The notes beneath the pieces are model-generated. The model saw only the letters and a program-made list of their open reading frames with translations. It was not told the origin of the DNA and did no database searches. This document shows positions 2,441-21,663 of a DNA stretch of 64,000 nucleotides, in pieces. How positions within the stretch are numbered: position 1 is the first letter of the stretch; each line of letters begins with the position of its first letter. The DNA is from Parvularcula bermudensis HTCC2503. Lineage in GTDB: Bacteria; Pseudomonadota; Alphaproteobacteria; Caulobacterales; Parvularculaceae. The translations under genes were made by a program, and so were the position numbers. The stretch covers positions 496,001 through 560,000 of the forward strand of contig NC_014414.1 of the NCBI RefSeq assembly GCF_000152825.2, read 5' to 3'.

Positions 2441-2543
2441 CTAAAGCCTCTTCAGGCGAAGCAAGACCCGGTTCGCATAAAGACAATACGACAAACAAAG
2501 ACCTGGATACATTTCACGCCTCAAGTTGCCGACACGGCTCTAG
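2441..2543. repeat. Dispersed ~105-bp element, copy A
   Basis: Together with 35390-35492 and 44688-44794 this is one of three diverged copies of the same intergenic element. It reads from CTAAAGC at 2441 to GCTCTAG at 2537-2543, the ends being near-perfect inverted complements. Shared internal blocks include AGGCGAAGC, a CCGGTT(C/T)GC core, ACAAA(A)CAA, GACCT and ACTCAAGTT-like sequence. It fills the space between convergent genes: the acyl-CoA dehydrogenase ends 18 bp before it, and the terminal CTAG contains the stop codon of xseA. I recall similar elements as common in alphaproteobacterial genomes; function is unknown. Confidence 0.75.
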
Positions 2544-4192
2544 GTCTCATCGCCGAACAGGCTGGCTTGCGGCGGCAATGATCCGCCGTCAGAGGAGGAA
2601 GGCTCGCCCCTTTGCGAGCCGTCGGATTTGCGGGATGTCTTGGCCTGGGGCGTCTTTCTCGCAGCTGACGACGCTGCCGCAGGTCCCTTCGTCTCCCCTT
2701 CGATCAGATGACGGACAGGCACCTCTCCCTCCGCAAATCGCAGATGGTATGTTTCCCCGGCCCTCATCTGGCGAGGCGACCGGATCACCCCTTGGCTCTC
2801 ATCGAGGACGAGGGCAAAGCCCCGCGCCAGGACCCCCTGATAGGATAGCGAGTGCAAAAGTCGCGCTTGATCGTCGAGGCGCGCTGATTTGCGATCAACA
2901 TTTTCGCGGGTCAGGCGCCCTAAGCGGCCGCCGATTTTTTTGACCTCCTCCCCCCCTCTGTCGAGGGAGCGCCGCACCAGGTGAGGCGAGAGGCGTGCAC
3001 TGATCACCTTCGACCGTGCCTGCTCCCAGCGTCTTGGCGGCGCTGTTATCAGACGTTGGCTCATTCCCTTCAGGGTCTCTGCCTTCATCGCCACCGCCGC
3101 CGTCACCAGGGCCGCGCTGAGCCCCCCCGCCGCACGTTCCATCCGTTGGGTTGCCCTCTCTACCCGTACCTTCAGCGACTGGGTAAGGTGCGAGACCGCC
3201 CTATCGAAGCGCTGTTCGGCCGGCTCGATCAGGCTTTCCTTACGGCCAAGCCCCCGCGCCGCGGACTGCAGGGCAAGAGATTGGGCCTCGAGATGATGGC
3301 CAATCCGTTGGGTGAGCCGCACATTCAATGCATCGAGGCGACCGCTCAAGTCCATTCGTACAGGAACGGCCATCTCGGCCGCCGCGGTGGGCGTCGGCGC
3401 ACGACGATCGGCCACATAATCGATAAGGGTGACGTCCGTCTCATGCCCGATCGCGGAGATGACCGGAATTGACGACGCCGCGACCGCTCGCGCCACGGCT
3501 TCGTCATTGAACCCCCACAAATCCTCGAGGGACCCTCCCCCCCGTGCGACGATCAGGACATCCGGCCGCGGAACGGGGCCGTCAGTGGGGAGAGCATTAA
3601 ACCCCTCTACGCCTGCGACGACGGATTTCGGACATTGCTCCCCCTGCACGACAGCTGGCCAGACAAGGACATGTACGGGAAACCGGTCCCTCAACCGGTG
3701 CAGGATATCGCGGATGACGGCCCCGGTCGGCGAGGTCACGACTCCGATCACTTGGGGCATGGGCGGCAGGGGCCGTTTGCGCTCCGCAGCGAACAATCCC
3801 TCCGCCTCCAGCGCTTTCTTGCGGGCCTCGAACAGCGCCATGAGGGCACCCGCTCCAGCGGGCTCCAAGGTATCGATGACAAGCTGATAGCGACTTTGCC
3901 CGGCAAAGGTCGTCATGCGGCCGGTGGCGATGACCTCCATCCCCTGCTCTGGCTTGACCTTGAGCCGCGACCAGCCCCCCTTCCAGATCACGGACGACAG
4001 AACGGCCCGCTCATCCTTGAGGTCGAGATAGCAATGACCATTACCCGATCGAGAGACCCGACCCAATTCTCCCCGTACCCGGACATAGCCGAAGCCGTCC
4101 TCGATCGTTCGTTTAACGGCGCCGGAGAGTTCGCTGACGCTGTATTCTTTCAGATTGCCCGATCCGCCGTCGGCTGGTTCCGCGGTCGCCAT
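2540..4192 (-). CDS. xseA: Exodeoxyribonuclease VII large subunit
   Basis: XseA degrades single-stranded DNA together with the small subunit XseB, giving short oligonucleotides in mismatch repair and recombination. The N-terminal OB-fold (YSVSELSGAVKRTIEDGFGYVRVRGEL, here shown only in part: positions about 18-44) and the following nuclease region with QVIGVVTSPTGAVIRDI and ARGGGSLEDLWGFNDE are characteristic, as is SAIGHETDVTLIDYVADRR. The C-terminal half is the long helical domain. At 550 residues it is somewhat longer than the roughly 450-530 typical, because of a Ser/Lys-rich tail of about 40 residues. The start is supported by GGGAGGG just upstream. It follows glnD by 20 bp. The stop codon lies inside the terminal CTAG of repeat copy A. 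XseB is not in the window. Confidence 0.95.
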   Translation of the reverse strand: MATAEPADGGSGNLKEYSVSELSGAVKRTIEDGFGYVRVRGELGRVSRSGNGHCYLDLKDERAVLSSVIWKGGWSRLKVKPEQGMEVIATGRMTTFAGQSRYQLVIDTLEPAGAGALMALFEARKKALEAEGLFAAERKRPLPPMPQVIGVVTSPTGAVIRDILHRLRDRFPVHVLVWPAVVQGEQCPKSVVAGVEGFNALPTDGPVPRPDVLIVARGGGSLEDLWGFNDEAVARAVAASSIPVISAIGHETDVTLIDYVADRRAPTPTAAAEMAVPVRMDLSGRLDALNVRLTQRIGHHLEAQSLALQSAARGLGRKESLIEPAEQRFDRAVSHLTQSLKVRVERATQRMERAAGGLSAALVTAAVAMKAETLKGMSQRLITAPPRRWEQARSKVISARLSPHLVRRSLDRGGEEVKKIGGRLGRLTRENVDRKSARLDDQARLLHSLSYQGVLARGFALVLDESQGVIRSPRQMRAGETYHLRFAEGEVPVRHLIEGETKGPAAASSAARKTPQAKTSRKSDGSQRGEPSSSDGGSLPPQASLFGDET

Positions 4193-4212: not shown

Positions 4213-6837
4213 CTAATCGTCAAGGGCGCGAAGCAATCCGCGCTTGATCGCCTCGATGCGCCGGGGGTCCTCGATTTTGTAGCCCGGGGCGTCCTGGAGG
4301 TAAAAGGTGTCGACCGCACGGTGGCCATAGGTCGCCACCAACGCAAATTCGATGTCGACACCGATCTCGGCGAGGCTTACCGCCAGAAGATGCAGCAAAC
4401 CGGGGCGGTCTCGGGTCTCCACCTCGACCACCAACGCCTTGCTGGAGGCGGTGTCATCGATACGGACCTGCGTTTCCACGTCGAAGACATGACGACGATC
4501 ATCGATAGACGGCGAGGGCAAGGCGATGTCGGGGCAGCGATCTTCGGCAATAGCGGAGAACAATTCCTCGATCCTTGCCTTTTCCTCTGGCCCCGGCACA
4601 AATTCCAGGGAAAGATTCCCTACCCGTTGAAGCTGAAGAAGAATGACGGCCACGCGTCGCCCTGCAAGGTCGACCGAGAACCCGCATGCCGAAAAGACAG
4701 ATCCACCGATCACAGACGCGGCCCCCGTGCACTCGGCAAAGAGAGTGGGTCGGTCGGTAGAGACGACCACAATATCGAGCAGCCCCTCCGTCCCCGGATC
4801 GATGTGAAGCCCCACATGCTCTTTTCCTGAAATGATCCCTGCAAAAAGAGTTGCAAGGTCGGCAATCGCCGGCACATCGGCATAGACCCAGAGGCTAGCC
4901 CCCACAGCCTCAATGAGGTGATCGAGCGCGGCGGCACCATCCGCATCGATCAATCGCTGCACTCGACCTCTTAGCTTTTCCGAGTAGCGATTGAGATAGC
5001 GCTCAACCTCTCCCTCTCCCCCTTCGATCTGAAGTCGGACAAGGTCGATGAGGACACCGATGTCTCGACGCGCAAAATCCTCCCACGACCCCAACCCGAC
5101 CACACGTTGCCGACAAAACGTCACTAGACTGAGGATCATCAGGCGCTGTAGAGTACCGACCTGGTGAGAGAGGCGTTCGATCACCTCGATATCCATGATA
5201 TTCCGGCGGCGCGCAGATCGGATCAGCATCATCCGATTGACGACGCAAAAGGCAACATCCTCGCCGGTTTGCGAATCGTGGGTAAAGAGCCCAACACGGC
5301 GGGTAAGACGTTGACGCAACGCCTCGACCCCCAGGCCCGGCATCGCCGCCTCTGCCTCTTGAAGCAAGAGCGCCATACATATCTCAACCCGAAGTTCACG
5401 GGCTTTGTCCGCAAACGGCATGGTTTCGACGCCCTTCAGGGTCCCCTCGATCAATTCGTCCAGGGCATAAATCGATCGAAGCACGTGGTCGTCGAGCGTA
5501 AAACGGCGATAAAGGCCGTACTCGACCTTACCGATCACACCCCCGAACCCCGGCATCATCAACCCCAACAGACCGCACTCCGCCATTTGGGACAATAGAG
5601 GACCGAGGCGCTTTGCCGATCTGATAATGGCCACGAAACGGTCCGCGAGGGTTTCCTCCACGGTTTCTGCGAAAGTAATCGATCTGACCGTTCGGGAAAG
5701 GAGTTGGAGCGCCCGCGGATGGATCGTGCAGCCGGTTTCGGCCGCCAGTGCAAACAGCAACAGGCCGTCCGCAACACTCGGCACGGTTCCCTCCGCGAAG
5801 TCGAGCCGCTTATGGCTCCAGACGATCGGCTCTGGAACGGTCCGTCTTGGTCTGATCGGCCGGCGACGGCGGTCCACGGTTTCTGCCAGACGGTCAATCG
5901 CATAGCCCGTCAATGAGGCCACCGCCCGCGTCGCCAAAAAATAGCTCCGCATAAAGCGTTCTGTCGCCAGCAACTCGGTACGTGCCGTAAATCCCAATCG
6001 GTCGGCGATGAGGGGTTGATGGGAAAAAGTCAGCCGATCATCCGCTCGCCGACAGATTTGATGAAGGTGAACCCGCACGGACCACAAAAAGCGATCAGCC
6101 CGATCGAGCCGTGCTTGTTCCTTATCATCGAATAGCTCCGCCAAACATGCTTCCCGATCCAGCGCCTTGCAGAACCATCGCAGGGTATCGAGGTCGCGCA
6201 ACCCGCCTCTCCCCTGCTTGATATCCGGCTCGACAGTATAAAGAGAGCTGTTATTAGCTGCATACCGCTCATCTCGTTCCTGCATCTTCGCCGCGATCAA
6301 GGCGCGGCTACGACGGCGGGTTTGGGCCTTGAGTTTGTCCAGAAACTGCGCAGCCAGCTTATTCGCCGGGCTAAGGGGCCGGGCATCGAGGAGCGCTGTG
6401 TGAAAGACGGGGTCCTCTTTCAGGCTCTCGATAGCACTCCTCACCGTGTGGACACTTTGAGAAATCGTCAGTCCACTGTCCCAAAGGGGATAGAGAAGCT
6501 GGGAAATGGAGACGTCGTCAGACCCGGTGATGATCAACAGATCAATATCCGAATGGGGCGCCAGCCGACCTCGGCCATATCCCCCGACGGCGAAGACGGC
6601 ACAATCGGTCACGGCCGCGGCCTCGATCATCGCCTGAAGAATCCAGTCCGTACCTGCACTGATCGAACGGGCGATATCGACCCCATCGCCGCCCCCGGCG
6701 AAAGCCGTGTCCACGATCCGTCGACGCTCATTCGCCAGATAGCGGCCAAGCTCGGAGGAGGAGGCGCCGTCGGCGATGGTCCGCCGCAATTCGTCCGCAA
6801 GACGAAGTTGGATATCGGCGCCGTCCATCATCCCCAT
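4213..6837 (-). CDS. glnD: Bifunctional uridylyltransferase GlnD with a degenerate HD domain
   Basis: GlnD normally uridylylates PII under nitrogen limitation and removes UMP, through its HD domain, when glutamine is high. The nucleotidyltransferase domain looks intact: [18 protein letters not shown] with Asp97 and Asp99, and [14 protein letters not shown] near 208-221. Two ACT domains are present near 705-755 and 800-870; the second contains the motif [10 protein letters not shown]. The HD domain is abnormal. His451 (DDHVLRSIY) survives, but the usual LLLHD...DHS motif reads [14 protein letters not shown] at 490-503, the usual HHLLM reads VNRMMLI at 533-539, and the later L(T)VADIRA motif reads LSLVTFCRQ. 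Uridylyl-removing activity is therefore probably lost. The gene overlaps the end of mutS by 10 bp and has GAAGGAG before its ATG; mutS-glnD adjacency is common in alphaproteobacteria. PII itself is not in the window. Confidence 0.93.
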
Positions 6838-9518
6838 CGCTCCTTCAACTCATAGAGCCGCTCCAAGGCCTGTTTTGGCGTTAAACTATCGGGATCGAGC
6901 TGTGAAAGCGTATCTTGGAACTCGGCTATCTCAGACCCCTCCCTTTCATTGGTGTCCGATTGCGCAAAGAGCGGCAGATCCTCGATCGTGGGGATCGGCC
7001 CCCGGCCCTCTTCAAGCTGAGCGAGGAGGCTTTCGGCCCGCCGCACCACCCGCCGCGGCAGGCCGGCCAATTTTGCCACCGCCAAGCCGTAGGATCGATC
7101 GGCCGCGCCCTCTCGCACCTCGTGCAAGAACACAACTTCCCCCTTCCACTCTTTGACCGCCATCGACAAGTTGCGCATTCGGCCGAGCTTGTCAGAAAGC
7201 GCCGTCAATTCGTGATAATGGGTCGCGAACAGCGCTCGGCACCCGATCCCGTCATGCAGTTCTTCGAGGGTGGCCCACGCAATCGCCATACCGTCATAGG
7301 TGGCGGTCCCCCGCCCCACTTCATCGAGAATCACCAGACTGCGGACCGTGGCTTGGTTCAGGATGGCGGCCGTTTCCAACATTTCCACCATGAACGTCGA
7401 CCGCCCCTGAGCCAGATTGTCAGAGGCGCCGACCCTGGAGAACAACCGGTCCACGATCCCTATTTTCACCCGCGCGGCGGGCACAAAGGAGCCGCATTGG
7501 GCAAGGATGGCGATCAGGGCGTTCTGGCGCAAAAAGGTCGATTTCCCCGCCATATTGGGGCCTGTCACAACGGCCAATGACGGCGCCTCCCCCTCGGACA
7601 AAAGACAAGGATTGGGCACGAAACCGCTGGCCCCGGCCGGCAGCGCGGCCTCGACCACTGGATGTCGGCCCGCCTCGACCTGAAAGCCCAAGCCGTCATC
7701 GATCTGGGGACGGACATATCGGCGATCATCGGCCAGGTCGGCGAGGGCCGTGAAGACGTCAATTTCCGCAAGTGCGGACGCCGTCGACTGGATGGCACCA
7801 TGGGCCGCGAGGATCTCGGCCCGCCTCTCTTCGAATAGCGCCGTCTCTCGCATCAGCGTCGTTTCACCGGCCGCGGCGATCTGCCCATCGAGGTGATCGA
7901 GGGTCTCGGTGGAAAACCGGACCGCATTCGCCAAGGTTTGACGGTGCCGAAAGGGATCATCGACCTCCAACGATCGCAAATGATCGGCATTGGCTGCCGT
8001 CACTTCGATAAAATAGCCCAGAATCCGCGAATGCTTGATCTTGAGGGAGCGCACCCCGGTCACCTCTCGATACCGCCCCTCCCACTCGGCAATGACTTGA
8101 CGACTGTCTTTGGTCAGTCGCCGTGCCGCATCCAGCTCGGCATCGATACCGTCGACGAAGATGCCGCCATCCCGCACCAGGTGCGGTGGGTCCTCAACGA
8201 GCGCCGCCGCCAAAGGCTCAGCCAGCGGCGCCCAAACCGCCGCGCGCTCCTTAAGGGTCGACAGGAGATCGCGCAGCAATGGGGGCAGCGCAAAGCGCGA
8301 CGGGGCGTCCTCCATCACCGCCATGATGGCGCGCGCGGAGATGAGCCCCGTGGCGATGGCTTTAAGATCCCGTGGGCCGCCGCGCCCCACCCCCAACCGC
8401 GTCAGGGCCCGTGACAGGTCGGGGACGCCCTTGAGAAGATCGCGCATTCCCTCCCGCCTCTGACGATCGTCGACGAACGCCGCCACCGCATCGAGGCGAT
8501 CGCCAATCGCCCGAGGGTCGGTGAGGGGGGCTGTCAAAAGCGCTTCGAGCCGCCGGGCGCCCGGCCCTGTGAGGGTCCGGTCAATTGTCGCAAGCAGCGA
8601 TCCTTCCCGCTGCCCATCGGCGGTGCGCGTTACTTCGAGGCTCCGCCGAGTGGCGGCATCGATGGACAGATACGCCGAAGAAATCGCGCGTTTAGGGGGG
8701 GATAGCGGCGGCAAGTGCCCTTTCTGGGTAAGGTCGAGATAGGCGAGAAGCGCCCCGAGGGCCCCCGCTTCAAGCTCAGTCAACTCCCCAAAGGCATCGA
8801 GGGACTGCACCCCAAAGATCGTCTGTGCCCATTCCCGACCGACCACTGAGCGGAAATCTCGGGCGGGATGACGCGTCGGCGCCGGGAGATCAACGGGCAG
8901 TGGCGGCAATGCCTGGCGGTCAGAGAGCAGCCATTCGGCCGGCGACAGGGCGCTCAGCCGATCGCCCAAGCTCTCCCCCTTCCCCGCCTCAAGACCGATT
9001 TCCCCGGTCGAAAGATCCACGGTCGCCAGTCCAAATTCTGTGTCATCCAGCGCCACGGCCACCAACCGATTGGCCGCGCGCGGCGACAGCAAAGCCTCCT
9101 CGGTCAAAGTCCCAGGCGTGACGATGCGGACGATTTCCCGGGCAACGACGGCTTTGCTGCCGCGTTTCTTGGCCTCTTTGGGGTCCTCGGTCTGCTCGCA
9201 TATGGCGACGCGGAAGCCCTTTCGGATCAGCCGGGCCAGATAGGTTTCGGCAGCGTGGACCGGCACACCGCACATCGGTATCGCCTCGCCCTCCTGCTTT
9301 CCCCGGTGCGTGAGCGTGATATCGAGGGCCGCCGAGGCCTTGATGGCATCGTCGAAGAACAATTCGTAGAAGTCGCCCATGCGATAGAAGAGAAGAGCCT
9401 CACCTGCGTCTTCCCGAATCGCGTGATATTGCGCCATCATGGGCGTCATGACGTGACCTGCGTTGTCAATTGAAGGGATGGTCCCACGGGACCTATCCAG
9501 AAGCCCTTGAGTTGCCAC
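6828..9518 (-). CDS. mutS: DNA mismatch repair protein MutS
   Basis: MutS recognises mismatches and small loops and recruits MutL. Visible are the mismatch-contacting Phe-x-Glu motif (GDFYEL, Phe50-Glu52), the connector and lever domains, and the ABC-type ATPase with Walker A GPNMAGKS near residue 652, the signature segment near [16 protein letters not shown], Walker [12 protein letters not shown] and the HYHEL switch. Length 896 matches the family. The annotated start is a GTG with little ribosome-binding signal; an in-frame ATG at residue 24 ([10 protein letters not shown]) is an alternative that still keeps the whole N-terminal domain. It is divergent from the YgjP-like gene across about 100 bp and overlaps glnD downstream. 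Confidence 0.97.
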
Positions 9519-20241: not shown

Positions 20242-21663
20242 ATGACCGAAGAAATGACCCGTGAACTGACCTTCCGACAGAACGTCAACATGATGTTCGA
20301 TCGAGCCACCACCTATCTCGATATAGACGAGGGGCTCAAACACAAGATCAAGATCTGTAATTCGGTCTATACGGTGCGATTCGGCGTCAAACTCCGCGGC
20401 TCGATCCACACCTTCACAGGCTATCGCGCCGTCCATTCCGAACACATGGAACCGGTGAAGGGGGGCATCCGCTACGCCCTCAGCGTCAATCAGGACGAAG
20501 TCGAAGCCCTGGCCGCCCTGATGACCTATAAATGCGCCCTCGTGCGCGTCCCCTTTGGGGGCTCGAAGGGGGGGCTATGCATCGATCCCACCCAGTGGGA
20601 TGCGGACGAGTTAGAGCGGATCACCCGTCGCTTCACCTATGAACTTGCAAAGCGCGACCTCATTCATCCCTCCCAAAACGTTCCCGCGCCTGACATGGGG
20701 ACCGGCGAGCGCGAAATGGCGTGGATGGCGGATGCCTATAAACGCATGCACCCCACCGACATCGATGCCATGGCCTGCGTGACGGGCAAGCCGCCCCATG
20801 CGGGCGGGATCCGCGGGCGGGTCGAAGCGACCGGACGGGGCTGTCAGTATGCCCTGCAATCCTTTTTCTCCTTTCCCGAGGACGTGGCGGCCTGTGGTCT
20901 GGACGGCGGCATTGAGGGCAAGCGGGTCATCGTCCAAGGCCTCGGCAATGTCGGCTATCATGCGGCGAAATTCCTCTCCGAAGAGGATGGGGCAAAGATC
21001 GTCGGGGTCATCGAACGCGACGGCGCCATACTGCATGATGACGGCATCGATATTGAGGAGATCAAGCATTTCCTGACCCGAAACGGCGGGATCAAAGGCT
21101 ATCCCCATGGCAAATATATCGAGGATGGGCTCTCGGCCCTGACGGCCGACTGCGACATTCTGGTTCCGGCGGCCATTGAAGGGGTCATCAACGGCGCCAA
21201 TGCGGCGGATATCAAAGCACGGATCATCCTCGAGGCGGCAAATGGTCCCGTTACGGCGAATGCCGACACCATCTTGCGGGAAAAACGGGTGGAGGTGATC
21301 CCCGACCTTTATACCAATGCCGGCGGGGTGACCGTGTCCTATTTCGAATGGGTCAAGAACCTATCCCATATGCGGTTCGGCCGGATGCAACGCCGGGCCG
21401 AGGAAAAGCGGGCCATGGCGCTTATCACCGAGCTGGAGCGGGCGACAGGTCAGCCCTTGAATGATCAGTTCAAAGCGCGGTTCGCCCAAGGGGATCAAGA
21501 GATCGATCTCGTCAGGTCCGGGCTCGACGATACGATGCGTACGGCCTATGCCCGGATGCGCCAAACCCGGGTCACCACCAAGGGCATCGAAGATATGCGG
21601 ACCGCGGCCTATGCGACAGCCCTGACCGATATCGCCAAGAGTTATGAGAGCCTCGGCCTCTAG
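20242..21663 (+). CDS. Glutamate dehydrogenase (Glu/Leu/Phe/Val dehydrogenase family)
   Basis: Reversible oxidative deamination of glutamate to 2-oxoglutarate and ammonium. The N-terminal dimerisation/substrate domain carries PVKGGIRYALSVNQDEVEAL and the catalytic-lysine region VRVPFGGSKGGLCIDP; PAPDMGTGEREMAWM contributes the catalytic Asp. The Rossmann domain begins with VIVQGLGNVGYHAAKFL; an acidic residue follows the second strand (GVIERDG), which favours NAD over NADP but is not proof. Size (473) fits the hexameric or mammalian-like small GDH class. GGAGGA precedes the ATG. A hairpin 18 bp after the stop may end the transcript. Confidence 0.92.
   Translation: MTEEMTRELTFRQNVNMMFDRATTYLDIDEGLKHKIKICNSVYTVRFGVKLRGSIHTFTGYRAVHSEHMEPVKGGIRYALSVNQDEVEALAALMTYKCALVRVPFGGSKGGLCIDPTQWDADELERITRRFTYELAKRDLIHPSQNVPAPDMGTGEREMAWMADAYKRMHPTDIDAMACVTGKPPHAGGIRGRVEATGRGCQYALQSFFSFPEDVAACGLDGGIEGKRVIVQGLGNVGYHAAKFLSEEDGAKIVGVIERDGAILHDDGIDIEEIKHFLTRNGGIKGYPHGKYIEDGLSALTADCDILVPAAIEGVINGANAADIKARIILEAANGPVTANADTILREKRVEVIPDLYTNAGGVTVSYFEWVKNLSHMRFGRMQRRAEEKRAMALITELERATGQPLNDQFKARFAQGDQEIDLVRSGLDDTMRTAYARMRQTRVTTKGIEDMRTAAYATALTDIAKSYESLGL

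Follow-up and report, generated by a model that had tools for sequence, protein, structure and literature searches.

Our analysis revealed that the GlnD of Parvularcula bermudensis HTCC2503, encoded in the 64 000 nt stretch of DNA studied here (the window), retains its nucleotidyltransferase motif and has lost most of the catalytic residues of its HD domain, and that this loss is family-wide rather than confined to the window. Judged from its sequence, the protein probably uridylylates PII in one direction only, its HD domain having become a structural or regulatory pseudo-domain, and PII would be reset by turnover or another enzyme rather than by GlnD. GlnD is the textbook bifunctional enzyme, and models of nitrogen control assume that PII modification is reversible. 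A lineage in which the writer is kept and the residues of the eraser are lost, and whose relatives drop the target tyrosine or the whole cascade, provides a natural experiment on the purpose of deuridylylation. The outcome would be of use either way, as a pointer to an unknown deuridylylase or as an indication that a slow, one-way mark on PII is sufficient.

The gene occupies positions 4213..6837 of the minus strand as an open frame of 874 aa, in a genome consisting of a single contig of 2 902 643 bases. Its start overlaps by 10 bases the end of a co-directional upstream gene (6828..9518, minus strand), which we take from its sequence to be mutS, and directly downstream lies another co-directional gene (2540..4192, minus strand), which on the same basis is presumably xseA-like. 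The open frame and the retained nucleotidyltransferase motif rule out a pseudogene or frameshift, in agreement with the initial annotation. That annotation had also proposed a search for a second GlnD; the genome contains none, and the remaining PF08335 matches all sit within one 951-aa frame with two GlnE domains. The window GlnD scored below the curated cut-offs of TIGR01693 (458 bits against 519, over a nearly full-length alignment) and PRK05092 (484 bits against 959), and it is approximately 27–45 % identical to its relatives over long matches. No PDB chain matched it at E 1, and a structure prediction for the window protein together with L034 and L035 was of low confidence (mean pLDDT 52, pTM 0.34). 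A glutamate dehydrogenase (PF00208, PF02812), earlier described as close by, is present at 20242-21663; it lies some 13 kb from glnD and shows no sign of a link to it.

The window GlnD is divergent throughout, yet its losses are concentrated in the HD domain. The nucleotidyltransferase core (residues 78–107; 6517..6606, minus strand) matched PF01909 with 22.2 bits and retains Asp97 and Asp99, which align with D105 and D107 of E. coli, and the PF08335 GlnD_UR_UTase domain (residues 181–311; 5905..6297, minus strand) matched with 108.5 bits and carries the GGLRD motif, both scores being over the cut-off. The GG-X-G-R...S-D-X-D motif is likewise present, and all ten of the outgroup-invariant nucleotidyltransferase motif residues tested are retained, which upholds the earlier description of this domain as intact at the level of its motif; 9 of its 32 outgroup-invariant columns are nevertheless lost. 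The E99 position is Arg in the window and is variable in the outgroup as well. The degenerate HD domain (residues ~440–599; 5041..5520, minus strand) was not matched by PF01966, even with the threshold relaxed to E 10. When invariant columns were defined on 10 outgroup GlnDs, a small set (10 rows for residue counts and 9 for the HD profile), the window was found to retain 23/32 in the nucleotidyltransferase domain, 28/31 in PF08335, 5/10 in the linker and 16/45 in the HD domain, followed by 1/3 after the HD domain, 3/6 in the first ACT domain and 10/11 in the second. The second ACT domain (residues ~790–866; 4240..4470, minus strand) is thus the best-kept portion of the C-terminus, although the only ACT match in the window protein was a weak one to an ACR9-like ACT model (E 0.22, below the Pfam cut-off); an ACT match was obtained for 27 of the 30 family GlnDs scanned. 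The flanking domains had been called well conserved. It is true that the loss is centred on the HD domain, but the flanks are uneven and the family-model scores fall below their cut-offs.

We take the HD metal ligands of E. coli GlnD to be H471, H514, D515 and D597. By alignment, His451 (5485..5487, minus strand) corresponds to H471 and is the lone surviving ligand position; Gln493-Glu494 (5356..5361, minus strand) replaces the H514-D515 doublet, and Arg576 (5110..5112, minus strand) replaces the last aspartate, D597. Further substitutions relative to E. coli GlnD (L106) are A497 for K518, A498 for G519 and R535 for H556. The picture of a wrecked HD domain in which only His451 remains is therefore borne out, as are the motif readings LLLQE, VNRMM and LVTFCRQ. 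The DHS motif is absent as reported; its absence is hardly informative, because it is not universal and 8 of the 10 outgroup proteins have Gln in place of the E. coli His. No metal ligands were found elsewhere among the aligned columns of the window HD domain.

An alignment with the GlnDs of relatives, as the initial annotation had recommended, confirmed the ligand loss and showed D515 and D597, together with K518, to be missing in 54/54 family members. GlnD was found in 54 of 62 family genomes, most of which are drafts. One of these, G016 (78 % complete), has two matches, on contigs 163 and 191, the first of which was read; another, G069, was read by its second frame only. In the latter genome (88 % complete) GlnD is split into two frames on contig 194, just before the HD region, which may be an assembly error. 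All 10 outgroup proteins have the four ligands and K518. Within the family, no protein has D at the D515 position (E in 48, Q in 6) or at the D597 position (H in 39, R in 12, Y in 2, N in 1), and none has K at the K518 position (W in 40), while H is present at the H514 position in 38/54 (Q in 13, R in 3) and at the H471 position in 40 of the 53 that were readable. The doublet at 514–515 reads HE, QE, RE or HQ in all 54. On the nucleotidyltransferase side, G93, G94, G96, S104, D105, D107, G224, R227 and D228 are retained in 53/53 readable family GlnDs, and R97 in 52. The Pfam HD model (PF01966) matched none of the 30 family GlnDs scanned at E 0.01, whereas it matched 10/10 of the outgroup.

All 12 family proteins with R597 have Q514, and 12 of the 13 with Q514 have R597, the remaining one having H597. 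This Q514/E515/R597 state, which is that of the window, occurs in three distinct clades, with 6, 3 and 3 rows, of a 50-row GlnD tree that has long branches, the window GlnD being on one of them. In these proteins we infer that internal contacts have replaced the old metal site. The majority of the family carries an H-H-E-H set that might still bind metal. A still-active HD hydrolase using other ligands (H-H-E-H in the majority of relatives, another set in the window's genus) would account for the histidines and glutamates at these positions and for the purifying selection described below. However, the window has Gln and Arg at two ligand positions and Ala in place of the lysine, K518 is lost throughout the family, and the Gln-Glu...Arg state is spread over three clades, so we regard continued hydrolysis by this domain as very unlikely.

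Selection on the HD domain was estimated from nine family pairs, six of which gave HD dN/dS values of 0.03–0.08, the other three being saturated. Nucleotidyltransferase dN/dS was 0.08–0.18 in the five of those six pairs for which it was computable, and an outgroup pair gave 0.00 for HD and 0.02 for the nucleotidyltransferase. Two of the six pairs share a genome, one (G030/G036) carries the residue set of the window, and the window itself is absent from all pairs as its nearest relative is too distant. The low values in the computable pairs indicate that the HD domain is not rotting. Constraint appears looser in the Gln-Glu...Arg genomes G022, G030 and G036, since their HD dN is 2.4–4.6 times their nucleotidyltransferase dN. 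Some relaxation is also suggested by within-family identity, which is lower for HD (37 %, against 63 % in the outgroup) than for the nucleotidyltransferase (47 %, against 66 %). No internal stops were found in the GlnD matches of the 54 family genomes, G069 being split as described.

A canonical HD-region profile, built from 9 outgroup rows, was run on two overlapping samples, one from the class (387 genomes, of which 274 matched) and one from the phylum (396 genomes, of which 375 matched). The window HD was the weakest among the matching genomes in both samples (E 9.3e-19). It was followed by G296 (E 4.6e-22) and then, in the class, by G174 (5.5e-37); in the phylum sample the family member G010 scored 6.1e-39 and all others 3.3e-53 or better. 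When 25 chosen genomes with poor or absent HD scores were searched with full-length GlnD, 20 matched, and 16 of these were read (17 rows). H-D stands at 514–515 in 16/16. At 597, G174 has Asn and G405 is unreadable; the GlnD of G267 is fragmentary and lacks the H471 region. The GlnD of G296 (L205), from another alphaproteobacterial family (f26), has lost the nucleotidyltransferase motif and has an intact HD motif.

The presumed substrate of the transferase is retained along with it. The PII of the window genome reads GAEYVVDF, with Tyr51 present, and Tyr51 was found in every PII copy read in all 50 family genomes in which GlnD is present and PII was read. Residue 51 was read in 29 genomes (46 rows, one locus being listed twice) and in 21 more with further copies, for PII-like matches with E of 1e-14 or below. 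Among the GlnD-bearing genomes, no PII match was obtained in G036, G062 or G070, and only a weak one in G069, these being drafts of 310–410 contigs. PII Tyr51 tracks the presence of GlnD, and where the HD residues alone are gone the PII target is retained. The glnB gene of the window genome (L066, ~C1:2175930) lies between dprA and an NAD(P)H-hydrate repair gene, far from the sole glutamine synthetase match (C1:403695).

GlnD itself has been lost about twice independently, and each loss is coherent, in that either the target site or the whole cascade has gone with it. Three GlnD-less g4 genomes, G012, G020 and G025 (L062, L063, L075; drafts, 89–95 % complete), have Leu at position 51 of PII (3/3). 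GlnE is present in all three, and the glutamine synthetase motif is DLYDLPPEE in the two read. For G020, a glnD hidden in a contig gap was ruled out, as the contig continues past mutS without a GlnD match; for G012 and G025, whose mutS matches end early, the absence of GlnD is that given by the genome search. Within the window's genus, four genomes, G001, G003, G005 and G009 (L167-L170, L175-L177; three 99 % complete and one 89 %), gave no match for GlnD, PII or GlnE. These four are grouped by a 100/100 split in a midpoint-rooted MutS tree, and the three mutS surroundings read (L175-L177) show no glnD or xseA following. Their glutamine synthetase reads DLYAM, whereas genomes read with GlnE have DLYDL, a type of motif that we take to be the site modified by GlnE. 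The motif was read in 15 of 17 glutamine synthetase loci, the two left out being extra copies of G007; the window genome, with its GlnE of two GlnE domains, reads DLYDLSPEE. In one further genome, G075 (84 % complete), PII has Tyr51, and neither GlnD nor mutS was found.

These losses bear on the possibility that GlnD has ceased to act on PII, through decay or moonlighting, with Tyr51 kept for reasons of the T-loop that have nothing to do with uridylylation. The joint disappearance of GlnD, PII and GlnE in a related clade is compatible with such a course, as are the high divergence and long branch of the window GlnD, and a passage in PMC4285133 describes Tyr51 modification as dispensable for GlnK-AmtB control. 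However, the g4 lineage, which has PII without GlnD, does not keep the tyrosine. Within the family the nucleotidyltransferase motif residues are retained, the frames are free of internal stops and dN/dS is low; by contrast, the broken-motif GlnDs outside the family (G296, in the nucleotidyltransferase; G174, with Asn597) occur in genomes where no PII match was found. Decay or moonlighting is hence an improbable explanation in our view.

Passages in PMC4285133 and PMC3480911 assign the uridylyltransferase activity of GlnD to its nucleotidyltransferase domain and the uridylyl-removing activity to its HD domain; from this assignment and the loss of HD residues, the window enzyme would be expected to write the mark and not to erase it, which partly supports the interpretation given in the initial annotation. 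In the one-way reading that we prefer, low glutamine would cause the nucleotidyltransferase domain to place UMP on Tyr51 of PII, as the retained residues and retained substrate suggest. The HD domain, with three of its four presumed ligands and the nearby lysine gone, would be unable to hydrolyse PII-UMP. The Gln-Glu...Arg set would occupy the former metal site, and purifying selection would keep the domain as a structural or regulatory pseudo-hydrolase. Glutamine would be sensed by the ACT domains and turn the transferase off, a control that is plausible because the second ACT domain is the best-kept C-terminal part. The PII pool may then be reset through newly made PII, through dilution or through proteolysis.

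A one-way GlnD could also coexist with a separate, unrecognized enzyme that removes UMP from PII. In its favour, passages in PMC4285133 indicate that the two activities are normally combined in GlnD in all systems with a characterized PII uridylylation. Loss of the eraser must be either tolerated or compensated in this family, because 54 of its 62 genomes keep a GlnD. The surroundings of glnD in six genomes and of glnB in one showed no candidate among the genes that could be named, which were only some of the neighbours (MutS, XseA, MurJ, DprA, Nnr and a Sel1-like gene), and we consider a separate eraser possible but rather doubtful.

Many genomes of g2, g3, g5 and g6 encode an extra, divergent GlnE-like protein of 936–960 aa. 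This protein was considered as an eraser and rejected, as none of the three read (L178:2687-5497, L179:897-3776 and L180:1833-4640) has a nucleotidyltransferase motif and it has no match in the window's genus (g1). Its gene in L178 is adjacent to one for a chloride channel (PF00654). G011 and G019 have no GlnE-like match other than this protein, and their glutamine synthetase reads DLYEL.

For the family as a whole, we lean slightly towards a write-only GlnD, in which the HD domain would have passed through the H-H-E-H set to Gln-Glu...Arg in three clades and become a structural or glutamine-relay pseudo-domain, PII-UMP being erased only through turnover or through a deuridylylase yet to be discovered. 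Among the papers listed from the open-licence PMC literature, none describes by its title or abstract a GlnD without HD residues. Compared with the bifunctional GlnD of E. coli and Rhodospirillum rubrum, the window protein has the same order of nucleotidyltransferase, PF08335, HD-like and putative ACT domains and the same nucleotidyltransferase motif residues, and it is encoded by a single gene in its genome. However, without the HD catalytic residues and with scores below the NCBIfam cut-offs, it cannot be called bifunctional. The GlnD of G296 is alike in that one of its two active sites is gone, yet it is the mirror image, since the nucleotidyltransferase motif is the one missing and the HD motif is kept; its genome gave no PII match. 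The window enzyme may also be likened, from the published description, to actinobacterial GlnD, whose GlnK is reportedly also controlled by proteolysis, going by a title (Strosser 2004). That enzyme is a member of the same family and targets the same residue, Tyr51 of PII, but transfers AMP (as described in part of PMC4285133).
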